Shown here: positions 5,643 to 39,156 of the stretch, piece by piece
Position numbering within the stretch: the stretch's first letter is position 1
Layout: each line of letters begins with the position of its first letter
Source of the DNA: Phycisphaerales bacterium
GTDB taxonomy: Bacteria > Planctomycetota > Phycisphaerae > Sedimentisphaerales > Anaerobacaceae
NCBI GenBank assembly: GCA_030602885.1
Contig: JAUVYV010000029.1
Coordinates: forward strand, 1-45,889
Direction: 5' to 3'
Length of the DNA: 45,889 nt
Notes under the pieces: generated by a model
Database searches by the model: none
Told to the model about the DNA's origin: nothing
What the model saw: the letters and a program-made list of their open reading frames with translations, nothing else
Translations under genes and position numbers: made by a program

Positions 5643-5777
5643 ATGAGCTTTCTCAAGTCTATTTTGCAATGGTGGTGCAAGCTGTGGCGATGCGACTGGC
5701 GTTTGCCCCGCATCGATACGCACAGATGGCACAACAAGAGCGAGATCCACAGAAGGTTGAAATATCGGCATCTGTGA
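5643..5777 (+). CDS. Possible 44-aa Trp-rich microprotein
   Basis: ATG at 5643 is preceded by a GGGGGG run (5630-5635) at Shine-Dalgarno distance. The product starts MSFLKSILQWWCKLWRCDW, with five Trp and two Cys in the first 20 residues, followed by a basic His/Arg-rich tail. The amphipathic N-terminus would suit membrane association. No family is recognised and the ORF may be chance. The 263 bp after it, up to gloB, contain no convincing gene. Confidence 0.3.
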   Translation: MSFLKSILQWWCKLWRCDWRLPRIDTHRWHNKSEIHRRLKYRHL

Positions 5778-6040
5778 GAGCTGCGTGGAGGTCCATAAAG
5801 GTCTTTCTGCGGAGCGGCGAAGGTACAGATGCAGAGTATTTCCGCAGCGTTCGAGACATACGCATTTGTCAGGCGTGCAGCAGGTGGGTACGCGCCTGCT
5901 TTTGAGCGGCTGGGGTTTCAGGACGGCAACGCCGGCGGCAGGCGGGACAAAAGCAATCAGCGTCTTGCAATCAACACGTCAAACGTTCTAATATCTGCAC
6001 TTGTTTTTCGGTCGTACAGCCAGTGTATTAAGGAGCCGAT

Positions 6041-6811
6041 ATGGATGCGGTGACCGTAATCCCGGCGTTTGGGAACAACTTCATATACGTGTGTCGGTAT
6101 GCCGGCGAAGGCGCTCTTGCCGTTGACCCGTGTGACAGCTCGACAGTGCTGCGAGCTATCAGTGATAAGAAGCTGCAGCTTACGGACGTTCTGGTGACAC
6201 ATCACCACCGGGACCACACGGCGGGGGTTGCGGAACTCAAAAAGATGACCGGCTGCAGGGTGATCGGTAGTGACGAGAAGAGAATTGGCGGCATAGACCT
6301 GGTGGTCGGGGATGGTGACGTTGTACCAGTCGGTGATACGAAGATAGAGGTCATTGCAACGCCCGGGCATACCGGGACATCCGTTTGCTATTATATGCCG
6401 ACGGCGAGCGAAGACGGCAGGGGGATTGTGTGGACGGGTGACACGATGTTCGCAGGGGGGTGCGGCAGGGTGCTCGAGTGTGGTATGGAGGCGATGTGGG
6501 AATCGCTTTCGAAATTAGCGGCTTTGCCCGAGGATACATTAGTTTACTGCGGCCACGATTACACGGAAGAGAACTTCGAATTTGCGTTGTCGATTATACC
6601 GAGTGACCCAGCCATACAGCATCGCCTAAAAGAAGTGCGGCAGGTGTTACGACAAGGTGGCTACACGGTTCCTTCGACGATAGGGCAGGAGAAGAAGACG
6701 AATATTTTTTTGCGGGTGGCCGAACCGGTAGTTAAAGGGGCTTTGCATATGGATGATGCGTCGGCGGTTGATGTCTTTGCAGAACTGCGGCGTCGCAAGG
6801 ACAGATTTTAG
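6041..6811 (+). CDS. gloB: Hydroxyacylglutathione hydrolase (glyoxalase II)
   Basis: A 256-aa metallo-beta-lactamase-fold enzyme that hydrolyses S-lactoylglutathione or related thioesters in methylglyoxal detoxification, in the cytoplasm. Metal ligands are visible: the motif THHHRDH (H54, H56, D58, H59), H110 in ATPGHTG, D134 in TGDTMF and H172 in CGHDYT. The C-terminal HAGH domain follows, with KKTNIFLR near residue 225, the region that binds the glutathione moiety. Length is that of the family. AAGGAG lies 7 nt before the ATG. It is convergent with the exonuclease gene ending at 6841. Planctomycetes do not all make glutathione, so the natural thiol may differ. Confidence 0.9.
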   Translation: MDAVTVIPAFGNNFIYVCRYAGEGALAVDPCDSSTVLRAISDKKLQLTDVLVTHHHRDHTAGVAELKKMTGCRVIGSDEKRIGGIDLVVGDGDVVPVGDTKIEVIATPGHTGTSVCYYMPTASEDGRGIVWTGDTMFAGGCGRVLECGMEAMWESLSKLAALPEDTLVYCGHDYTEENFEFALSIIPSDPAIQHRLKEVRQVLRQGGYTVPSTIGQEKKTNIFLRVAEPVVKGALHMDDASAVDVFAELRRRKDRF

Positions 6812-8725: not shown

Positions 8726-8873
8726 GGAGGTGTTATAGGTCTTGGCAGGGTTTTGATTCGTAAATACGGAGTATTTCGAATTAATGTTCTGGTGGAGGAG
8801 CATCTTCGGACGCCTATTGGGTTATTTTCATCCGGTTTGATACAGATGGACTGAAATGCGCAGGAGGTGTAAG

Positions 8874-11800
8874 ATGAGGTATTATCACAGTTCAAATTCA
8901 TTTCTTAAAAAACCATTGTTTGTGCTGCTTTTGGTTGTTGGGATTGCTACCGGCATGTGTGCAAATGCGGCGCAACCGGCATCTTCAATCGGTGAAGAAT
9001 ATGCTTATGTGAGGATTTTCAGCGCAAAGATATCGGATGAATTGAGCGAATCACTTGATGAAGATGAAATAGAGGCAATTGCGCGTGAACAGGGCACTGA
9101 AGAGGTAGCGATGTTTCTCAAATCCGATGGTCCTGAAAAGCAGGCAGAGCGAAGGATCGTACGCTTAGGTTCTGAGGAATATGGTTATCCGCCGGGTTTG
9201 ACGGTAAAGGCACGGACACATCTGGCAGAGCAGAAAAAGCGCGGTGCTTTGCAGATGAGCAGCGACGGGCGCAGGGCCAGCGAAGTGCTTGCCCATCAAA
9301 ATGCTCGTCTGCAATGGGTGTTGCCCGAGTCTGTACGGTCGCCCCTATTATGTGATGTCAGCGAAAACGGCAAGCTGATAGCCAAAAACAGTATTCAAGA
9401 ACGACTTTCGCCGTCCGGTTTGCAGCGTTGGCCGGAGGTAATTCGCATCGAGCTTCCACAGAGAGACTGGGGTATAATCCAGGTTTTTGAATATCTCGAT
9501 GAAATGCCGGAGGGGCTTGAGCCTGTCGAGGATGAAACAATTTGGCATATGCCTTTCGGGAAGAGTGCGGTAAGAGAGAGAGACCGGGACGGAACGAAAA
9601 CAAACAGTGGGGACATACGATCGACCGCGGAGGACACCAATAGTATCGAAAAGAAAGAGCCGGTTTTGTTTTCCGCTTCCTGGCCATCCTGGGGCGGAGA
9701 GATGGGTCTGCATTCCGGCTGGCAGCCGAGGGGCAGTCCCGTTCAGATTCGTTTTGATATGGATGCGGCAGCCAGGCTGTCGTCTTCGATAGCCGGTGAG
9801 TTCGATCTGGTTTATGATCCCTGTACTCGAGAAGGAGATTTGACGCTGGGGGCCAGTTCAGGGCCCGGAGAGCTTGAAATAAACTTCGGCGTGGAAATGT
9901 CATCAAGAGGGCGCGTGGGGGTGGATTTGGGGCTGAAGGAGGTTGAGTTTACGTTTGATATTCCTTACGCACCCAATTTCGACTTCAGATGTTACGATAC
10001 GAATTCATTCGATTCCTATTTTATAAGCTCCGATAGTCCTGTTCGTGTGGCCGACTGGATCGAGCCACAGGAGCTGTATTCAATGGATGTTGCAGGAGTG
10101 CCGAAAATAGCCAGTGTCACTGTGGCTGCAATGGCACAGATGGAGTTATGGGCCGAGATGTGGACAGCTTCAATAACGACAGATTCAGTTGCAGATCCTG
10201 GAGATCCCTGTTCGATATCCGAGCATTGCAATTTTACATCAGAGGGACAAACACGTTCGGTAAATCTGCGTGATAACAATGCGTATATTGCAAACGCGGA
10301 TTATGATGAGCATTTAGAGATGGGTATGATTGTTACTTTTTATCCGGAGGTCTGTGTAGAAGTCGATGTATGGATATACGAATGGGATTACTGCGTGTCT
10401 GTCTTCGCACTGCCTGTGAAGCTTTGTGACGGTCCGTTAGACCTCGATATCAGTTCAGAACTGCGGTTTGAAGCCACTTATGATTTTATACTCACAGCAA
10501 CCAGTCCGGGAGCTGATACTGTACCGCCGCCCGATATTTACTCCGGCGCGCCGCCTACCGACATTTCCATTAGCGGCGGTGATGTCGGTGTTCGGAACCT
10601 TGGGGTGTACAGCTGGTATGACGTGAATCAAGAACATAATGTTTGCGTTACAGCCACGACCGCAGATGCTCCGGCTTATGAGTTTGATTGCTGGATATTA
10701 GACGGAAACGACGTCAATGAGATTGCAAATCCTCAATGCTGTGTTTACTTTGACATCAACGACAGTAACAATGTGTTCCATTCATTACATGCGATATTCT
10801 TCCGCGCCAAGGCGACCGAGCCTTTCCCGGGAGACCTTGAGGACAAGACAGGTAAGCTCATTACCCTTAGCTGGGTACCGGGAGAACGCGTGGCATCGCA
10901 GGATTTGTACTTCGGGACGAGTTTTGATGTTGTTGACAATGCGACTAACTTAGATCCCATGGGGCCGAATGAGGTTTACAGGGCTCACTTGAATGCTGCT
11001 GATACCGAGTATATTATCCCCGAAGAGCTTCAAGACTGCGAGACTTACTACTGGCGGGTCGATGAGGTTAATGATCCCTGCTTATGGGAAGGTATGGTCT
11101 GGAAGTTTAGAACAATCGGCTGTTGTGCTTCGGAGCCGAGCCCGCCTAATTGTGCTGCGGACGAGCCGAGGAATGTCCAGCTTAGCTGGAAGCAGGGCGA
11201 ACTTGTCGCAGATGCCAATCATCATTTGTATCTCGGCACCGATTTCGACGAGGTGAACGATGCCAATATATCTACGGTTGAGATATATCGAGGTGTCAGG
11301 GACACGAATAGTTGTATTATCCCGGAACTCGCCGCTATTCTACCCACGACATATTACTGGCGGGTCGATGAGGCCAATGATGCCTATCAAAATGATCCAA
11401 GTGAGCACATCAAATACCCATGGAAAGGGGCGGTATGGAAGCTGACGGTACAGCATGTCGTCGTGGATGATTTTGAGCGTTACAACGACATCGATAAGAA
11501 AATATATGATACATGGATAGATGGCTTTGAAGATTTTAACAGCGGCTCAGAGGTTGCCCTCGAGACAAGTTCTGATTACGTTCACGGCGGTGAAAAGTCG
11601 ATGAAGTATATATATAACAACTCGTTAAAGTGGCCTACGCAGCAGGGGTATTTTTCCGAGATAGCTGCGGATATAGTTAGTCTTGAGGTTAATGAAATCG
11701 GTGGAGACTGGACGGACTGTGATATTAAAGCATTAGTGTTGCAGTTCTACGGTGAGCCGAACAACGATTGCAGTGAAAATGAGCGTTTGTACATAGCTCT

Positions 11801-28531: not shown

Positions 28532-29953
28532 ATGAAGGAAAAAACAAGTGATACTCAAATCTCTCGCCGCCAGTTCGTAAAATCTGCCGCCGCTGCCGCC
28601 GCATTTACCATTGTCCCCCGCCACGTCCTTGGCGGTATAAACCGCACGCCGCCATCCGAAAAAATCAACGTCGGTATCATCGGCGTGGGCGGCCAGGGAA
28701 CCTGGGATACCCAGCAGCTCCTCGAATTTCCTGAGCTGCAGGTAATCGCCGTCGCCGACCCTGTCAAAAGATGTGACTACAGCAAATGGTGGTACGAGAC
28801 CGACCGCGGCACCGAACCCGCACGCGAAATCGTCGAGCAGCACTACGCCGAACAAAAGCAATCCGGTACCTATAAGGGCTGCACCGAATACGCCGACTTC
28901 CGCGACATGCTCGAAAAAGAAGACCTCGATGCCGTCCTCATAGCCGCAACGGATAACCTCCACGCACCCGCCTCAATGGCCGCTATGAAAAAGGGCCTGC
29001 ATGTTTACTGCGAAAAGCCCCTCACACACACTGTCCACGAAGCCCGCGAAATGGCCCGGCTCGCCGGAGAAAAGAAGCTCGCCACTCAGATGGGAAACTC
29101 AGGTCAGGCCTCCGAACGCACGCGACGCGTTGCCGAGTTCATCGCCGACGGCGCCATCGGCCCCGTTCGCGAAGTCCACGACTGGACGAACCGACCCGTC
29201 TGGCCCCAGGGCCTCGGCCGACCAAAAGACACACCACCTGTCCCGGACTGGCTTAATTGGGACCTGTGGCTCGGACCCGCTCCTCATCGCCCCTATCATC
29301 CTGCCTATCTGCCCGTCCAGTGGCGTGGCTGGTGGGATTTCGGTACCGGCGCACTCGGCGACATGGGCTGCCACACCTTCGACCCCATCTTCCGTGCACT
29401 CAACCTCGGACACCCAACCACCGTCGAGGCCTGCTTCACAGTGTCCGTTCTGCCCGACCGCAGCGAATATGTCACGACCGAGACCTTCCCCCATGCTTCC
29501 ATTGTTCGCTACGAATTCCCCGCAAGAGCCGATTTTCCCCCGGTGAAACTCACCTGGTACGACGGCGGTATGAGACCCCCGCGCCCGGATGAGCTTGAAG
29601 AAGGCCGAACCATGGGAAAAGGCGGCGTCATGTACGTAGGTGACAAAGGCAAAATGCTTCAGGGCAGAATCATCCCGGAATCTAAAATGCAGCAGTACAA
29701 ACTGCCGCCCAAGACCCTGCCCCGTTCGCCCGGACACTACAACGAATGGGTCAACGCCATCAAAGGAGGCCCGGCACCCGGCGCCAACTTCGAATTCGCA
29801 TCGCTCGTCACCGAGACCGTCCTGCTGGGCAACATCGCCCTGCGATTCCCCGACACAAAACTCAAATGGGATGCTCAAAAATTCGAATTCACCAATCTGC
29901 CCGAGGCCAATCAGTGTCTCCACAGACAATACCGCCCCGGCTGGTCCCTCTAA
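28532..29953 (+). CDS. Tat-exported Gfo/Idh/MocA-family oxidoreductase
   Basis: A 473-aa protein with a twin-arginine signal (SRRQFVKSAAAAAAF, residues 10-24). The Rossmann motif is VGIIGVGGQGTWD, then AATDNLHAPAS and VYCEKPLTH with the EKP lysine. The C-terminal region contains GDMGCHTFDP, typical of the large planctomycete subfamily (about 430-480 aa) that also includes the gene at 13107. It is second in the operon, so a cytoplasmic and an exported dehydrogenase are made together with a corrinoid methyltransferase. The 3' end is G/C-skewed like its neighbours. Substrate unknown. Confidence 0.88.
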   Translation: MKEKTSDTQISRRQFVKSAAAAAAFTIVPRHVLGGINRTPPSEKINVGIIGVGGQGTWDTQQLLEFPELQVIAVADPVKRCDYSKWWYETDRGTEPAREIVEQHYAEQKQSGTYKGCTEYADFRDMLEKEDLDAVLIAATDNLHAPASMAAMKKGLHVYCEKPLTHTVHEAREMARLAGEKKLATQMGNSGQASERTRRVAEFIADGAIGPVREVHDWTNRPVWPQGLGRPKDTPPVPDWLNWDLWLGPAPHRPYHPAYLPVQWRGWWDFGTGALGDMGCHTFDPIFRALNLGHPTTVEACFTVSVLPDRSEYVTTETFPHASIVRYEFPARADFPPVKLTWYDGGMRPPRPDELEEGRTMGKGGVMYVGDKGKMLQGRIIPESKMQQYKLPPKTLPRSPGHYNEWVNAIKGGPAPGANFEFASLVTETVLLGNIALRFPDTKLKWDAQKFEFTNLPEANQCLHRQYRPGWSL

Positions 29954-29970
29954 TCTCTCGGAAATCGCCA

Positions 29971-31407
29971 ATGGCAAAGATAAACATAACGCTCCTGTCC
30001 AACGACGAAATACAGTCAATTCACAACGCCTCTCTCGCCATACTCCGCGACACCGGCATTATGATTCACCACGACGAAGTGCTAAAGCTCCTCGGCCAGG
30101 CCGGCGCGAAAATCGACGAAACAAACAAAATCGCCCGCCTGGATGAGAAATTGGTTATGGATTGTGTTGCCAAAGCAGGCAAACAATATGTCCTGTATGG
30201 TCGTGACCCTAACAAAACCGCACGTTTCGGATATGGCGATTTTGTCCTTATGTCCAGCCCGGGTCAGTACCTCTGGCTCGACGCCAACAGCACCAAACGC
30301 CGCTCTGCCACAATCACTGACGCACAAAACGCAATCCGGCTCGGCGACGCCCTCGAAAATCTCACTATCGTCGGCTCAATGGCAAGCCCACAGGAAATCC
30401 CCGAATCCTTTCGCGAAGTATTCCTCACCGCCGAGCTCGTCAAGGGCACAACCAAGCCCACTCGAACCTGGATATACAACGGCCGAACCGCAAAGTACGT
30501 CCTCGAAATATATCGCACCATCGCCGGCGGCGAAAAGGCTCTCCGTGAAAAACCAATGATAGAGACTTTTATGGAGCCCATCAGCCCGCTCCAGCTTCCC
30601 AAAGACGGCCTCGACATCATCATCAAATTCGTAAAGGCAGGCCAGCCCGTCTCTATCGGCCCTATGGCAATGACCTCCGGCACGGCACCCGGCACACTCG
30701 CCGGCACCCTCGCACAGGAAAACGCCGAAATCCTCGCCGGCCTCGTCGTCACACAGCTCCTCGCCCCCGGAACACCCATAACCTACGGCGGCATCCCGCA
30801 CATCATGGACCCACGAACCGGAATCTGTTCTTTTGGTTCCCCTGAGCAGGGATTGATGGCTGTGGCAATGGTGCAAATAGCTCAGCTTTACGGCTTCCCC
30901 GCTTACGTCAACGTCAACCTCACCGACTCCAAGCTGCCCGACGCACAGGCCGGTACCGAAAAGGCAACGTCGCTGCTCCTCGGCGCACTCGCCGGCGCCG
31001 ACACCTTCGGCCATGCCGGTATCTGCGGAACAGACCATGCCGCCTCTCTCGAATGGCTCTGCCTTGACAACGAAATCGCCGCCTACGTCAAAAGAATCAC
31101 TCGCGGTTTCGATGTCACCCCGGACACACTTGCCACTGACGTCGTCAACACTGTCGGCCCGAAAGGCAACTTCCTCGCAGAACCACACACCGCCAAACAC
31201 TTCCGCAAAGAGCTCTGGCTGCCCAACTCAACCTGGACAAGGGACTCCTTCGACGCCTGGCAGAACAGCGGCAAAAAATCATTCGCTGACAGAATCGCAG
31301 AGCAGGTCCAAAGCACGCTAAAAACACATCAGCCCGAACCAATCGACGAACAGCTCGCAAAAGAAATCGACCGAATCGTCAACGCCGCAAAAAAAGAATT
31401 GGCGTAA
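29971..31407 (+). CDS. MttB-family corrinoid methyltransferase, non-pyrrolysine type
   Basis: A 478-aa member of the trimethylamine methyltransferase (MttB) superfamily. It starts MAKINITLLSNDEIQSIHNAS as in the family; landmarks are ILRDTGIMIHHDEV, the barrel strands EPISPLQLPKDGLD and GPMAMTSGTAPGTLAG, and FGHAGICGTDHAASLEW near the C-terminus. There is no internal TAG, so it lacks pyrrolysine, like MtgB, MtpB and MtcB. Those enzymes move a methyl group from a quaternary amine (glycine betaine, proline betaine, carnitine) to a corrinoid protein. No corrinoid protein or reactivase is in the window, so partners lie elsewhere. It lies 17 nt after the second dehydrogenase in the same operon. 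Confidence 0.85.
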   Translation: MAKINITLLSNDEIQSIHNASLAILRDTGIMIHHDEVLKLLGQAGAKIDETNKIARLDEKLVMDCVAKAGKQYVLYGRDPNKTARFGYGDFVLMSSPGQYLWLDANSTKRRSATITDAQNAIRLGDALENLTIVGSMASPQEIPESFREVFLTAELVKGTTKPTRTWIYNGRTAKYVLEIYRTIAGGEKALREKPMIETFMEPISPLQLPKDGLDIIIKFVKAGQPVSIGPMAMTSGTAPGTLAGTLAQENAEILAGLVVTQLLAPGTPITYGGIPHIMDPRTGICSFGSPEQGLMAVAMVQIAQLYGFPAYVNVNLTDSKLPDAQAGTEKATSLLLGALAGADTFGHAGICGTDHAASLEWLCLDNEIAAYVKRITRGFDVTPDTLATDVVNTVGPKGNFLAEPHTAKHFRKELWLPNSTWTRDSFDAWQNSGKKSFADRIAEQVQSTLKTHQPEPIDEQLAKEIDRIVNAAKKELA

Positions 31408-33269: not shown

Positions 33270-34082
33270 TCACTCCAAATCAAACGGCGTATTATCCACC
33301 GGCTCGAACCAACCTAATAAAAATTCTTCCGAATTCGCACCGTAATTGTTGATACCACCCGATTCCGCAAGCTCTCGCGCATCTACGTGCCCGTCCGACC
33401 AGGCAATATTCGCAAGCCCTTGATGCCGAAAATGTATCGAAGGCGACGAATACATACTCGTAATCATTTGGCCCGCTATCACAAAATAAGGCGGTTCTGC
33501 AAATGAATACTCGTGAAGATACGGCTGCCCATTGTCGTCAAGCCTTGCCATCGCACAATCCGCAAACATCAGCGTCTCGCTCGGCCGCTTCACCTCACTC
33601 AAACGCGCCGTCAGAGAATAACGCTCCGCGAACCCAAGCCCCTTCTGCCACACCCTGCTGCCGATATACGTCATATTGTACCCATACCCCCCACAGCCCT
33701 GCTCGAAGTTCAGACCCCACGCAGCACCTTTACGAAACTTCACCTTCACCGGACATTCCTTCACCTTCCCGTCCGCAAGGTACCCTGCCAGCGGGCCTTT
33801 AAGAGGATCGAACGGCTCATTCGCGTCACTCCGTACCCCGTGCCATCGTCGTTTTCCTCCTAGCGCCGATATTATGTCCGGTGCTGCCGCCACAAGGTAT
33901 CCGTCGTTCTCCGTCGCATAACCGCTGTTCGCCAGAAATAACTGACGAAGGTTCGACCGGCAAACTATGCTCTTACCCTGCAGCCGTGCTCGAGCCAGTG
34001 CAGGCATCAGTATCGCCATCAATACCGATATCGTCGATATCACCACCATCAGCTCTACCAGGCTAAACCCTCTTTTACGCAT
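33270..34082 (-). CDS. Type II secretion-like pseudopilin / DUF1559-style prepilin
   Basis: A 270-aa protein starting MRKRGFSLVELMVVIS: a type IV prepilin leader cut before Phe with Glu5 in the mature N-terminal helix, followed by NLRQLFLANSGYATENDGYL. The C-terminal segment HFRHQGLANIAWSDGHVD matches the H-x-G...DG-V signature of the DUF1559 / planctomycete pseudopilin families. It inserts in the inner membrane and, after PilD processing, may assemble into a pseudopilus or act as an anchored surface protein. It is the last gene of the riboswitch-led minus-strand group (45 nt after the dockerin protein). The start at 34082 is set by the leader; the frame is open to 34139. Confidence 0.82.
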   Translation of the reverse strand: MRKRGFSLVELMVVISTISVLMAILMPALARARLQGKSIVCRSNLRQLFLANSGYATENDGYLVAAAPDIISALGGKRRWHGVRSDANEPFDPLKGPLAGYLADGKVKECPVKVKFRKGAAWGLNFEQGCGGYGYNMTYIGSRVWQKGLGFAERYSLTARLSEVKRPSETLMFADCAMARLDDNGQPYLHEYSFAEPPYFVIAGQMITSMYSSPSIHFRHQGLANIAWSDGHVDARELAESGGINNYGANSEEFLLGWFEPVDNTPFDLE

Positions 34083-34126
34083 CTCAAACTCACACCGCTC
34101 TAACCTGCAACCTGTAATCTGTGACC

Positions 34127-35179
34127 CTACTTCCTCCACTGCTCTACTGCTCCCCAGTCGCCCGCCAGAACCGCAAAATCCTTCAAATCAACCACATAAT
34201 CCCTCGGTCCTGCAACATCGCACCTGGCCGAAAACGCACTCTCCCCGAAATGCTCCTGCCACGCCCATGCAAACTCGTGCAAATCGTCCAGGTCCACTAT
34301 CCCATCCAGATTAATGTCCCCACGATACTCCTGCGGATGCAAAACTCCTATCGCCTCCAGATCGAATCCGCCCGAATCATACGTCTCCCACGCATCGTAA
34401 ATCGGGTGGTTCCCATCATAGTTCCCCCACTCAGGCCAACTGCACGGGTCGACATGCTCGCTCGCCTCATCAACAAAGTCCCCGCTGCCCGGTATATCCA
34501 CTATCCGCACATAGTTGATGTTGTTGATATCCACAAGCCCCGCCATAACGTTCGGCTCACCGGCAAGCACACGCAAATCGAACGGTGTCCCTCTGCATAT
34601 CCCGTAACCATTCTGATGCTTGCCCGCAAGACCGTAAACGTCGCTCGCATATATCATTCCGTAATTGCCCACCGCCTCCGGCGTCAGTGACACCCCCGCA
34701 AACCGCACATAATAAGTATTATCACTCGACACCTCCACGTACCCTAATTCAGCAAACATCTCAACAAATGCATACCCGTTCTCGAATACGACAAAATCGT
34801 AACCCGCCCCATCTGAAATCACCGCATCGAACGATAACGTTATCCGCCCGCACGGCACACCGCTCGCAATTTGGCCGCTGCTCAGGTCCCCTAAGCTCAC
34901 TATATCAAGATGGTCGCCTGTCACCGGCCCCAGCGCATACCACGGGTCATCCCAGTCAGGCCCAACCCCAGGCGCCGGCTCGTAGCTCACCGCCTCCGCC
35001 GCCCAGCCCCGAAACATCGGATTCAATACCGCATCCGAATCCCACGGGTCTGCCTCACGCCAGTCGTCGCCGACAAATCCATGCACCCCACGCTCATTGT
35101 AAGGCCCCGCATTCACCACACTCACCATCCCTGCAATGCTCACCACAAATACTATCGTTCCGCTTCTCACTGACGCCAT
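34127..35179 (-). CDS. Secreted surface protein with C-terminal dockerin module
   Basis: A 350-aa protein with a signal peptide (VFVVSIAGMVSVVNA). The body (residues 25-280) is a beta-rich domain annotated in other genomes only as a cell-surface protein (RITLSFDAVISDGAGYDFVV, then YVEVSSDNTYYVRFAGVSL). The C-terminus carries two dockerin-type Ca loops: DINLDGIVDLDD and, 26 residues on, the degenerate CDVAGPRDYVVDLKD. ATG 35179 has GGAGAGG upstream. It follows the DUF4465 gene (136 nt apart) behind the cobalamin riboswitch; proteins of this domain and DUF4465 are sometimes encoded together near cobalamin-uptake genes. Ligand unknown; cobamide binding is inference. Confidence 0.75.
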   Translation of the reverse strand: MASVRSGTIVFVVSIAGMVSVVNAGPYNERGVHGFVGDDWREADPWDSDAVLNPMFRGWAAEAVSYEPAPGVGPDWDDPWYALGPVTGDHLDIVSLGDLSSGQIASGVPCGRITLSFDAVISDGAGYDFVVFENGYAFVEMFAELGYVEVSSDNTYYVRFAGVSLTPEAVGNYGMIYASDVYGLAGKHQNGYGICRGTPFDLRVLAGEPNVMAGLVDINNINYVRIVDIPGSGDFVDEASEHVDPCSWPEWGNYDGNHPIYDAWETYDSGGFDLEAIGVLHPQEYRGDINLDGIVDLDDLHEFAWAWQEHFGESAFSARCDVAGPRDYVVDLKDFAVLAGDWGAVEQWRK

Positions 35180-35220
35180 CACCCTCTCCGCTGCACCTCA
35201 TCCATCCTGCCCATCACACA

Positions 35221-35264
35221 TATTTAACCCCGCAATCTTGTCCCGACGTGGTTTGTCGGGGTTT
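35221..35264. repeat. TATTTAACCCC-led hairpin
   Basis: TATTTAACCCCG is followed by a hairpin, CCCGAC (35242-35247)/GTCGGG (35255-35260), then GTTTATT on the plus strand; the outer AACCCCG also pairs with CGGGGTT. It shares its leader with the elements at 26684 and 36241. It lies between the two minus-strand surface-protein genes, so it may act as an mRNA-processing or partial termination site. Confidence 0.5.
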
Positions 35265-35314
35265 ATTGTGGCCTTCGCCTGCGAATACTCTGGCGCTACG
35301 CTACCCAAGAAAGC

Positions 35315-36088
35315 TCACCGCTTCCTCTTCAACGCAACTACACCCAGACCCATCAGCAAAACCATACCCGGCTCAGGAACAACAATACTGTCAATCACGA
35401 AGTACACCGGCGTATTCATCCCATACTCTCCAACGTCACTGCTGCTGAGCGAAAACTCCACGCTCGACACCTCTCCCAGCGGACCCAAATCCACGTACTC
35501 CCACCCATCCACAATGTAATCCAGACCGTTGTCCGCAAAGCGATAATCGGCTAAATAAAAATCAACCGTCCCTGTCACCTCTTCAAGCTCATTCTTGCCC
35601 GTTATCGTCAGCAAAAACCAGTCCGCGTCATCGCCGCTCGCACCGCCGAACTGCTTGGCAAACATGTCCCCATACATCATCGAATAATAAGCATAGTTGT
35701 TGTTCGTCACGCTTAACCCCGCAATCACGCTCGGCATCTCCAGCATCATCGTCGGCGGCCCGCCCCAACCTACATAACCCACCGCGTAATTCGCAGAGCC
35801 GCCTTCTCCGCTGCCCGTTATCGCATTGTACTGGGCGCCCCAGTCGCTCGCCGCCGTATCCGTAATATTCGAATACGCAAATCCTTTCCACGAGCCGTAC
35901 GTCTCATTGTAATCGTTCGCAAACCACGCACCACCGCTGCTAAACCCACCGCTCAAGTCCGCACCATTCCAATACGACTCACTCGCCAGGCTCAATTCCT
36001 CAAAATCAATAATCGTCTCTCCCTTAACCATCCCCGCCAACACAAATACAACACAAATACAAAGCATCACCCTTTCCGAAGCCGTCAT
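35315..36088 (-). CDS. DUF4465 protein with PEP-CTERM sorting signal
   Basis: A 257-aa exported protein. Signal peptide (VMLCICVVFVLAGMVKG), then the DUF4465 domain: FEELSLASESYWNG, SGGAWFANDYNETYGSWKGF, NYAVGYVGWG and YFVIDSIVV at its end. The C-terminal tail VVPEPGMVLLMGLGVVALKRKR-type ends with PEP, a transmembrane stretch and basic residues: an exosortase target, so the protein is probably anchored or released at the cell surface. DUF4465 genes are recurrent in Bacteroidota cobalamin-uptake loci. Here it is the first gene after a cobalamin riboswitch on the same strand. A GAGGAGA site precedes the ATG. No exosortase or BtuB-type transporter is in the window. Confidence 0.8.
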   Translation of the reverse strand: MTASERVMLCICVVFVLAGMVKGETIIDFEELSLASESYWNGADLSGGFSSGGAWFANDYNETYGSWKGFAYSNITDTAASDWGAQYNAITGSGEGGSANYAVGYVGWGGPPTMMLEMPSVIAGLSVTNNNYAYYSMMYGDMFAKQFGGASGDDADWFLLTITGKNELEEVTGTVDFYLADYRFADNGLDYIVDGWEYVDLGPLGEVSSVEFSLSSSDVGEYGMNTPVYFVIDSIVVPEPGMVLLMGLGVVALKRKR

Positions 36089-36240
36089 TCTCTCTTCTCC
36101 TCACTAATACAAAAATTATTCTCATAAACTCCCCTTTCTCTCCTCCTCCATCACCGACAATCAATCCGTTAATACCACACCCAACTGAATCCCGTCTCAC
36201 CTCCTTTCTATCCAAAAGAATCAATGCCCACGAAATTTTA

Positions 36241-36268
36241 TATTTAACCCCCACCCCTGCGGTGGGGG
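36241..36268. repeat. TATTTAACCCC-led GC hairpin
   Basis: TATTTAA leads into CCCCCACC (36248-36255)/GGTGGGGG (36261-36268). On the minus strand it follows the terminator at 36284-36323 and lies in the leader of the DUF4465 gene. Shared leader with 26684 and 35221. Confidence 0.5.
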
Positions 36269-36283
36269 TCCTTCAGCGCGCAA

Positions 36284-36323
36284 ACAAAAAGGCCGTCGCT
36301 CCCGCAACAGGAACGACGGCCTT
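36284..36323 (-). terminator. Intrinsic terminator between riboswitch and DUF4465 gene
   Basis: On the minus strand AAGGCCGTCG (36323-36314) and CGACGGCCTT (36298-36289) pair perfectly and are followed by a T run (36290-36286). It lies 112 nt after the aptamer and 195 nt before the DUF4465 ATG, on the same strand, so it could be the riboswitch expression platform. I found no convincing antiterminator; only AGGAAC in the gap can pair with GTTCCT in the terminator loop. Confidence 0.8.
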
Positions 36324-36434
36324 AATTCCGATAACATCTAACTCAGACCAAACTGCCTTCACAAAATCACAGCGCACCGGACCGAGTTGTCTCCGGGTTC
36401 CTTATCGCGAGAACTCCGCACACTTAACCGAATA

Positions 36435-36725
36435 CAGGCAGGTTTTCTGACTTGCGCCCTACCTCGAGGACCCCTTCCCATCCAAAACTAATCTTCGAAA
36501 CGCAAGACAGGCACAATAACACACCTGCCAACCGTTTGGGGTATAAAAGATTAGTCCCGAACAGTGGGACTACTGCCTCTCGGATTTCCGACCATTAATC
36601 GGAACGGACGCTCACAGCGGCGCGACCACCCGGGATTCTCACCCGGTTCCCTTTTTATCTATCCCAAAGCATTCAACGCTTCAGGACCCGCACTCGGCCT
36701 ATTAACTTCTAAAAGAGCAACCAAC
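36435..36725 (-). promoter_or_regulatory. Cobalamin (AdoCbl) riboswitch aptamer
   Basis: Read on the minus strand the conserved B12 elements appear in order: GTTGGTTGC at the 5' end, AAAGGGAACCGGGTGAGAA then TCCCGGG, the core GGTCGCGCCGCTGTGAGC (matching the consensus CCCGCNACTGT region), GGCAGTAGTCCCACTG, TGGGAAGG, GAGGTAGGG and the closing CAAGTCAGAAAACCTGCC. This is the RF00174 architecture with an extra stem inserted in the middle. Cobalamin binding normally switches off B12-uptake genes. The only genes downstream on this strand before a strand change are the DUF4465 protein, the dockerin surface protein and the pseudopilin. Confidence 0.9.
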
Positions 36726-37224: not shown

Positions 37225-39156
37225 TTATCGATATGATCTTTGGAGCCAGACGGCGGATAGGTACCAGATATCGTCGTAATCGACCTGGCCGTTGCCGGTG
37301 ATGTCCTCGCCGGCGCCGAGCCAGCTTTCGGCGAGCGTCGAGAAGTCTTTGAAGTTGACGATACCGTCTCCATTGAGGTCGGCCTGTTCGATCCAGAACC
37401 AAGTTGTACCCATTAGCCAGTCGTCGGCGAAGAGACCTAAGTCCTGGATCCCGACGGTGGCGCTTCTGTTGAGATCTGCCGGTGATAACTGGCCGACGTA
37501 GCGGAAATCGGCGGCGAAGTATGAATAGTCCGTCAAGTCCACGAAACCATCGTTGTTTATGTCGGCAAGCAGGGCCCAACCGGCAGGAGGGGCGCTTGCT
37601 TGGTACGTTCCGCCGAACGCGCCCATATTAATTCTGTTTCTTTCATAGCCGTACTCGTAGGGGGCCGGTGAGCCGGGGTTTCCGGCATCGATACAGGGGC
37701 TGGTAATTGTGCCCCCTGTCCAGCCATTTGCGTCGGTCCACTGCCATGGGATACTGCTCAGGTGGTATTCGTTATTCTCGGGATCAATGAAGCACGGGTC
37801 CAGGTCAAGGTTGCCAAGCCCCCAGTCAATATAGCAATCGGTGGCGACATAGGCATCTGTCTGGCCGCCCTGAATGTCGGAGTATGATACGGACAGGGTT
37901 GATGGATTTGAGGCACTTAGCAAAGCCAGCTCATTTCCGAAGGCAGCGAAATTGTTCCACAGTATGGAATTCATCAGATTTACACTGCTTGCGCCGTCGC
38001 AGCAAAGGGCACCTCCAACAGCCCAGGACATGTTGTCAGCCAGTGTGCAGTTTATGATAGTAGGACTGCCCCCCAAGCAGCATATTCCACCGCCTTTGCT
38101 CGATGCCGTGCTGCTGATTATAGTGCAATTCGTTATAGTCGGGCTGCTTTCGCACAAAATGGCGCCGCCGTTATCGTGATAGCCGTTGATAATAGTCAGC
38201 CCATCGATAATGGAGTTTGGCTCTTCTCCGCTATGGAAGTGGAAGGCTCTGTGTTTGTTTTGCAGGGAGCCCTGGCAGTTTATAACCACTGTGACAATCT
38301 GGTCATTCGAGCGTGTCGCCCGGACGGTGACAGGTTTTCCGTTGAGGTCGAGGTCGATGTTACTGCTTCCAGTATAGGTGCCCGGCCGAACGACGACGTG
38401 TCCGCCTTCGGCGGCGATATCAATGCCTTTTTGTATGGTCTTGAATGGCAGGTTCGATGTCCCCAGCCCTGTGATGTCGCTTCCGTCGTTTGCGACGTAA
38501 ACGCGTGCCTGTATTTTGTAAGTATAAACCCAGTCGAACTGATAGTGAGGCACGTCGTTCATATCATTGGCGAGCTCCGGAGGAAGTGTATTTAACTGGA
38601 CGATGCTGTCAACGACATCCATTCCTTCCAGTACCTGCCCGAAGACGCAGTATCCGTATCCGTACGGGTCATTTTCAAGGTCAAGGTCAGTGTTGTCTGT
38701 TGTGTTTATGTAGAACTGTGACGTGGCCGAGTTCGGGTCGCTGGTTCTGGCCATGGCGATTGTTCCGCGGATGTTGCTCAGGCCGTTGTAGCTTTCGTTG
38801 ATTATTGGGTCTCGCAGCCCCTCCGTTACAAGCCAGGGGCCGTAGCGTGTGCCGCCGCTTTTTACGCCCCAATACCCTCCTCCCTGGATGAGCCCGAAGT
38901 TCGGGTCGTTTTCGTTTTTGATGCGGTGAATGATGAGTGGGTCGTAGAAACCGGAGTTGACGTAATAGAGGAAGTTGTCGACCGTGATCGGTGCCTGGGC
39001 GGGGAACAGTTCAATTGTTATTGCGCCGAGAGTGGTATGCATTACCACTTTTGGCGTATCCTGGCTTGGCGGCAGGAGGTAAGCGCCGGATTCAGCACCG
39101 ATGGCCAGAAGAGCCAAAAAGGCAAGGCAGGCAATATATTTCACCCTCGCACCCAT
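37225..39156 (-). CDS. Secreted cyclophilin-type peptidyl-prolyl isomerase fused to beta-helix and dockerins
   Basis: A 643-aa exported protein. After the signal peptide (YIACLAFLALLAIGAESGA) comes a cyclophilin domain (about 33-220: VVMHTTLGAITIELFP, ITVDNFLYYVNSGFYD, HRI, NIRGTIAMART, SQFYINTTDN, VFGQVLEGMDVVDSI). Residues 220-520 form a right-handed beta-helix with the usual GTYTG opening and repeating TITNCTI-like turns. The C-terminal 110 residues carry four EF-like loops (DINNDGFVDLTD, DLNRSATVGIQD, DLNGDGIVNFKD, DITGNGQVDYDD), that is two dockerin-type modules. Cyclophilins speed proline isomerisation; an extracellular one attached to a polysaccharide-binding fold is unusual. A good promoter lies upstream. 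The start lacks a clear Shine-Dalgarno; GTG 12 bp downstream is an alternative. Confidence 0.85.
   Translation of the reverse strand: MGARVKYIACLAFLALLAIGAESGAYLLPPSQDTPKVVMHTTLGAITIELFPAQAPITVDNFLYYVNSGFYDPLIIHRIKNENDPNFGLIQGGGYWGVKSGGTRYGPWLVTEGLRDPIINESYNGLSNIRGTIAMARTSDPNSATSQFYINTTDNTDLDLENDPYGYGYCVFGQVLEGMDVVDSIVQLNTLPPELANDMNDVPHYQFDWVYTYKIQARVYVANDGSDITGLGTSNLPFKTIQKGIDIAAEGGHVVVRPGTYTGSSNIDLDLNGKPVTVRATRSNDQIVTVVINCQGSLQNKHRAFHFHSGEEPNSIIDGLTIINGYHDNGGAILCESSPTITNCTIISSTASSKGGGICCLGGSPTIINCTLADNMSWAVGGALCCDGASSVNLMNSILWNNFAAFGNELALLSASNPSTLSVSYSDIQGGQTDAYVATDCYIDWGLGNLDLDPCFIDPENNEYHLSSIPWQWTDANGWTGGTITSPCIDAGNPGSPAPYEYGYERNRINMGAFGGTYQASAPPAGWALLADINNDGFVDLTDYSYFAADFRYVGQLSPADLNRSATVGIQDLGLFADDWLMGTTWFWIEQADLNGDGIVNFKDFSTLAESWLGAGEDITGNGQVDYDDIWYLSAVWLQRSYR

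Follow-up and report, generated by a model that had tools for sequence, protein, structure and literature searches.

BtuB and TonB form the well-known outer-membrane route for vitamin B12, and BtuFCD carries the vitamin through the inner membrane. In a 2026 paper eight DUF4465 proteins were found to bind B12, and binding was called a common function of the family (PMC13398666). Its B12 binders in DUF4465/IPR027828 include BtuJ1 and BtuJ2 of Bacteroides thetaiotaomicron, D5EK51 of Coraliomargarita akajimensis and 'Pan' of Mucisphaera calidilacus (PMC13398666). At its C terminus, BtuG1 of B. thetaiotaomicron has a BtuH domain, which holds a B12 site of its own (PMC10404256), and BtuH had no known structural homologues when it was described (PMC8941943). 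Here we analyse a stretch of 45,889 nucleotides, called the window below, from a Phycisphaerales bacterium (GCA_030602885.1, contig JAUVYV010000029.1), in which a cobalamin riboswitch is followed by genes for a DUF4465 protein, a second secreted protein (P2) and a pseudopilin. This locus is very probably a B12-acquisition operon, and we are only slightly less sure of the operon as one unit in which the pilin has a functional part.

The aptamer (36420..36706, minus strand) matches RF00174 over model positions 1-189 of 189 (E 8.6e-15), and the covariance model scores the entire aptamer at 68 bits against a gathering cut-off of 31.5. This search confirmed, as a cobalamin riboswitch, the aptamer that an initial annotation, made from the letters of the window, had placed on this strand and called an adenosylcobalamin (AdoCbl) aptamer. 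An intrinsic terminator (36284..36323, minus strand) separates the aptamer from the first gene; it has a 16-bp stem (36323-36289) followed by a U tract (T-rich tail), and the region has a folding z of -4.9 relative to shuffled sequences. The terminator is likely the OFF platform of the riboswitch, and the anatomy points to the expected OFF switch, working through transcription termination. The order on the minus strand is riboswitch, terminator, DUF4465, P2 and pseudopilin, and the far end of the operon abuts a convergent rpoN gene. The source genome (97.6% complete), searched one family at a time, yielded no second cobalamin riboswitch and no other DUF4465 gene.

The first gene (35315..36088, minus strand) encodes a DUF4465 (BtuJ-like) protein with a signal peptide and a PEP-CTERM tail. 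It was correctly recognized from the outset: the domain matches PF14717 (E 3e-51; 174.7 bits, cut-off 25) and the tail lies above both curated cut-offs (PF07589, 24.4 bits against 20.7; TIGR02595, 17.2 against 16). Its top match in the Protein Data Bank (PDB) is 9hmu (E 7.7e-27), the crystal structure of a DUF4465 protein from Coraliomargarita in complex with B12. Judged by eye against the published motifs (PMC13398666) and the solved proteins, the binding-loop motifs with their conserved tyrosines are kept, NTPxYF in the HI-loop and YAY in the DE-helix (aligned stretches MNTPVYFVID and TNNNYAYYSMMYGD). We infer from the family that this member, too, binds B12. It resembles the BtuJ proteins in its domain family, in being secreted, in its apparent riboswitch control and in standing beside other B12-capture genes, but it has a PEP-CTERM tail where they have a lipoprotein anchor. 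The locus also differs from BtuJ loci, as it is without adjacent btuB/TonB genes and a pseudopilin follows instead. The initial annotation had supposed that a cobamide-capture system, which may be displayed on the cell surface through PEP-CTERM/dockerin anchoring, was undescribed in Planctomycetes. For the DUF4465 part this needs correction: Mucisphaera calidilacus belongs to the class Phycisphaerae, so a B12-binding DUF4465 protein is already known from planctomycetes (PMC13398666). The main text of that paper mentions neither PEP-CTERM nor pilins.

P2 (34127..35182, minus strand; likely start ATG 35179; domain 34346-35113) has no assigned Pfam family. It appears to be a secreted beta protein, as had been proposed, and its tail holds two EF-hand-like repeats that look dockerin-like by eye. 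The dockerin part of the earlier description is weak: NF041540 scores 16.2 of the required 29 bits and no Pfam dockerin was reported. The predicted structure, which like our other models was built from a shallow alignment, has a pLDDT (predicted local distance difference test) of 92.6. Its fold search gave a sole PDB match with E below 0.001, to BtuG1 of B. thetaiotaomicron (8blw chain B, E 8.7e-4, probability 1.0). A second fold comparison placed the same chain first (Z 10.6 over 168 residues, 23% identity). The remaining rows were unrelated, at Z 9.0 and below and mostly 8-10% identity, a modest margin in Z and a clear one in identity; the likeness to discoidin/CBM32-like chains (Z 8-9, ~8-10% identity) was taken as common architecture. 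Independently, the P2 sequence profile found one PDB chain, again 8blw chain B, at residues 391-497 in the H-domain region (E 0.0026). Predicted fold and profile together argue that P2 is probably a remote relative of BtuH, the Bacteroides B12-binding domain, and it may bind B12 in its turn. We adopted this BtuH-like reading in place of a plain dockerin protein without assigned function. P2 thus shares a predicted fold and a weak profile match with BtuH and the H domain of BtuG1 (7BIZ, 8blw), and its domain, like that of BtuG1, also occurs fused to a propeller. It differs from BtuH in being ~23% identical over the aligned part, in not being a lipoprotein and in having a tail that is dockerin-like or PEP-CTERM.

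The last gene (33270..34082, minus strand; likely start ATG 34082) encodes a pseudopilin. Its prepilin N-methylation motif is above cut-off (N_methyl, 29 of 21.2 bits; TIGR02532, 22.9 of 16.3) and includes the Glu that is invariant in our alignment of the subfamily (A2). The model has a pilin fold with a long N-terminal helix at 9-59 and a weak match to PilA4 (Z 5.3), and an H-X9-DG motif was recognized by eye. The protein had been called a DUF1559-style pseudopilin, which is right for the prepilin and H-X9-DG motifs and is not borne out for the domain: PF07596 (DUF1559) gave no match at E 1 in the window pseudopilin, and a relative in the locus L253 barely reaches it (25.2 of 23.3 bits; L and G numbers denote loci and genomes). 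With the DUF1559 / H-X9-DG pseudopilins of planctomycetes it shares the prepilin N terminus, the H-X9-DG motif and the pilin fold, but it belongs to a distinct subfamily that is linked to cobalamin riboswitches and present at about one copy per genome. The A2 alignment has invariant R80, W81, R85, GGYGY, FRH and GWF, and a mean column identity of 45%, against 38% in an alignment of 30 P2 domains from riboswitch loci (A1).

We followed these families through 298 draft genomes of the class, which we take to be Phycisphaerae from the initial annotation and general knowledge, with match lists of at most 150 rows. DUF4465 occurs in 44 of them, P2 in 55 and RF00174 in 274. In all 38 DUF4465 genes with enough upstream contig, RF00174 lies upstream on the same strand; the six others of the 44 are at contig ends (G247, G093, G105, G289, G286, G274). 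Given that these genomes span several megabases and carry 1-3 such riboswitches each, this pairing is not due to chance. The co-occurrence in relatives was a check named beforehand, and to these 38 genes it adds a linked btuF-btuD-btuC in the locus L070.

The pilin turned out to be the most recurrent member of the system. The genes around 57 riboswitches were mapped: 37 of these are in loci selected because they hold DUF4465 or P2, and the other 20 are high-scoring riboswitches mostly from genomes without DUF4465 and P2 at first search (G083, with locus L129, had a weak P2 match). In 49 of the 57 (32/37 and 17/20) the same strand carries a downstream pilin of the subfamily, and five of the eight pilin-less loci are contig ends. 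The pilin is the constant part of the system, and not the passenger that it had been taken for. The subfamily is set apart in score: across the 298 genomes 101 places score above 230 bits and the next is at 157, while within the mapped loci riboswitch-linked pilins score at least 195 bits and background pseudopilins at most 160. In a FastTree tree all 65 high-scoring pilins, a group defined by score, fall in one clade with five others, at modest support (0.76); one of the five, in L148, comes from a locus that also has a B12 box and a P2-like gene. For 72 high-scoring pilins the riboswitch position in the genome was known; 62 of them are at most 7 kb downstream of a riboswitch (median 2.5 kb), and the rest are nearly all on other contigs.

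The capture genes vary around this constant part. A single reading frame spans P2 and DUF4465 in L082, L087, L095 and L097, and a propeller and P2 in L121 and L129; such in-frame fusions support a joint function. The alternative capture gene C5 of the relatives encodes a YncE-like beta-propeller reminiscent of BtuG, whose PEP-CTERM tail passes the cut-off in L072 and narrowly misses it in L122. The pilin also lies in one open frame with an upstream domain in L145:3778-6852 (plus strand; a P2-like domain), L107:115-2091 (minus strand; read from where the matches to P2 and to the pilin overlap) and L102:9505-11733 (plus strand). The prepilin helix would be internal in these frames, which represent either fusions or two genes without an intervening stop.

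Several operons link the pilin to B12 genes. In L070 (genome G008) the order is riboswitch, DUF4465, P2, pilin, btuF, btuD, btuC. The same genome carries a canonical riboswitch-led operon (L228) with cobamide assembly genes, BtuB, ExbB, ExbD, TonB, btuF, btuD and btuC; its BtuB has TIGR01779 as best match (351 bits, below cut-off) and the other genes were named by eye. A minimal form in another class of the phylum (L253) consists of riboswitch, pilin, btuF, btuD and btuC. These loci share the riboswitch class and the downstream btuF-btuD-btuC order with the canonical btuB-exbB-exbD-tonB-btuF-btuD-btuC operons (L228 in G008, L255 in G143), but in L070 and L253 the pilin occupies the slot of BtuB-ExbB-ExbD-TonB. 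L255 has tandem riboswitches at 6404-6653 and 8743-8988, one heading the pilin and the next the adjoining BtuB-ExbB-ExbD-TonB. L254 has riboswitch, pilin, a small protein, BluB, CobQ, CobO and CobT, and in L253, L254, L252 and L119 the pilin is under the riboswitch without any capture gene. Outside the phylum, we found riboswitch, propeller, P2 and pilin in a Chthoniobacteraceae genome (L146), and riboswitch, P2-like domain and pilin in a Hydrogenedentota genome (L145). The scan of genome contigs with the pilin alignment gave at least 80 loci, only a handful of them informative, as one pattern is the generic pilin N terminus.

Several of these loci have further features of their own. In L072 (G243) each of two tandem riboswitches, at 2662-2940 and 5760-6031, has a pilin after it. 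A protein of ~100-115 residues, lipoprotein-like by eye and with no Pfam match where tested, comes after the pilin in another family of the phylum (L252:5983-6330 and L254:5971-6276, minus strand; L251:7079-7420, plus strand). The pilin is retained in L250 and L251, where no riboswitch was found.

The genomes that carry these loci appear to need B12 from outside. CbiC, which marks de novo corrin synthesis, is absent in 49 of 50 related genomes, the source genome included. A FecCD (BtuC-type) permease is present in all 50, and B12-binding domains (23/23) and secretins (17/17) occur in every genome tested for them. TonB receptors were judged by one profile (Plug), and this domain was not found in 22 of the 50 genomes, including the single-contig G243, G038, G002 and G296. 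There is no btuB within the operon (33270-36088). BtuF-BtuC-BtuD type genes of the source genome, for which B12 models are the best matches at scores below cut-off, lie on another contig (L140). The lone plug-domain protein found in this genome was rejected as a BtuB: it is Cir-like, reaches 44 of 600 bits for the TonB-B12 model and lies beside a putative kinase. Its neighbours at this locus (L141:7013-11925, plus strand, contig C55) are probably a YfiR/DUF4154-like protein and a histidine kinase, together with response regulators, which suggests a sensory module. For the crossing of the outer membrane by cobamide in genomes without TonB receptors, the pilin is the operon's one dedicated candidate.

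We therefore propose the following scheme, in which we infer the control by B12, the surface location and the part of the pilin. When cobamide is scarce, the aptamer would be empty, the terminator (36323-36284) would remain unformed and the operon would be transcribed. The DUF4465 protein and the BtuH-like P2 would be exported and would hold cobamide at the cell surface. As part of a machine of the type II secretion or type IV pilus kind, the pseudopilin would help the captured cobamide to cross the outer membrane and reach BtuF-BtuC-BtuD. From gene order, we put the probability that the pilin acts directly in moving B12 through the outer envelope at roughly 45%. The stronger form, in which a dedicated type IV pilin-like protein made in B12 shortage takes over the outer-membrane step from BtuB and TonB, by performing or driving it, is doubtful. 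Pili-like fibres of Planctopirus and Gemmata bind dextran (PMC5394234), which renders fibre-assisted uptake thinkable but does not show it.

Several observations weigh against this scheme. TonB receptors occur in 28 of the 50 genomes, so the pilin cannot be a simple BtuB replacement everywhere, and G008 and G143 carry BtuB and the pilin both. The btuFCD genes are unlinked to the operon in the source genome. The high-scoring pilin is found in 101 of the 298 genomes, and many riboswitch-bearing genomes of the class are without it. The fold search of the pseudopilin gave ordinary pilins only (Z 5.3 and below), with no B12-binding feature or ligand hint.

Other functions can be imagined for the pilin. 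Type II secretion pseudopilins drive the export of folded proteins, and the pilin could be a dedicated part of a similar machine, by which the DUF4465 and BtuH-like proteins are exported across the outer membrane, while B12 enters by a porin, a TonB receptor or another channel. The usual position of the pilin after the capture genes and the secretins in all 17 genomes tested fit such a role, yet the pilin stays under the riboswitch where no capture gene remains to be exported: with btuFDC in L253, with salvage genes in L254, and in L252 and L119. For this reason we prefer the direct role in uptake and consider export rather unlikely. The same minimal operon L253 would suit a pilin that is itself a B12-binding surface protein, with the filament as anchor and no transfer of B12 across the membrane. 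Its globular domain is unusually conserved, as the invariant residues and the higher identity compared with P2 indicate, but the fold searches, which are weak tests, revealed no structural likeness to any B12 binder, and we regard this function as improbable. It could finally be argued that DUF4465 alone belongs to the riboswitch and that P2 and the pilin are chance neighbours, since secreted PEP-CTERM/dockerin proteins and pseudopilins (~20 to 430 first-look candidates per genome) are abundant surface genes in planctomycetes. Conservation already contradicts this, through the fusions of P2 to DUF4465, the score gap around the pilin subfamily and its place shortly downstream of riboswitches, and we give it next to no weight.

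Elsewhere in the window, an MttB-family protein (PF06253, E 7e-93) is encoded at 29746-31407 on the plus strand, and its presence had been cited as support for the operon. The gene is indeed there, but this support is weak, as it lies on the opposite strand with no link to the operon. It scores 412 of 525 bits against the trimethylamine enzyme model, below the cut-off, and its reading frame is open under table 11 and hence not read through TAG; it is probably a non-pyrrolysine MttB relative with a different substrate. The gene directly upstream of the riboswitch shares its strand and encodes a 643-residue protein (37225-39156) that combines a cyclophilin domain, a repeat region and a dockerin-like tail. 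Among the relatives, one locus with a DUF4465 operon has near its end an Acido-Lenti-1 RNA (RF01687, 39.9 of 37 bits; L010:3453-3498, minus strand).

The riboswitch-controlled cobamide-capture group suggested by the initial annotation is well supported: DUF4465 is a B12-binding family (PMC13398666), P2 resembles BtuH, and in L070 the set stands directly upstream of btuF-btuD-btuC. The pairing of riboswitch and DUF4465 is of a kind already known. Neither the BtuH-like family of planctomycetes nor the pilin linked to riboswitches appears to have been described; in the open-access literature searched, where absence is no proof, we found nothing relevant linking a cobalamin riboswitch with pseudopilin, prepilin or Planctomycetes. 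The capture toolkit of Bacteroides (BtuJ, BtuH-like, propeller) is thereby extended to a setting without BtuB. The best lead is the pilin in B12 uptake, perhaps replacing BtuB. The group lacks CbiC, keeps B12-dependent proteins and a BtuC-type permease and often has no detectable TonB receptor, yet it places a pilin with B12-capture genes under B12 control. If the pilin works in uptake, this would explain how such cells obtain B12, and one member of the very large, uncharacterised pseudopilin families of planctomycetes would gain a first function open to testing. An import of B12 by the pilin would be a role for pilin/secretin machinery in small-molecule import, which would be categorically new.

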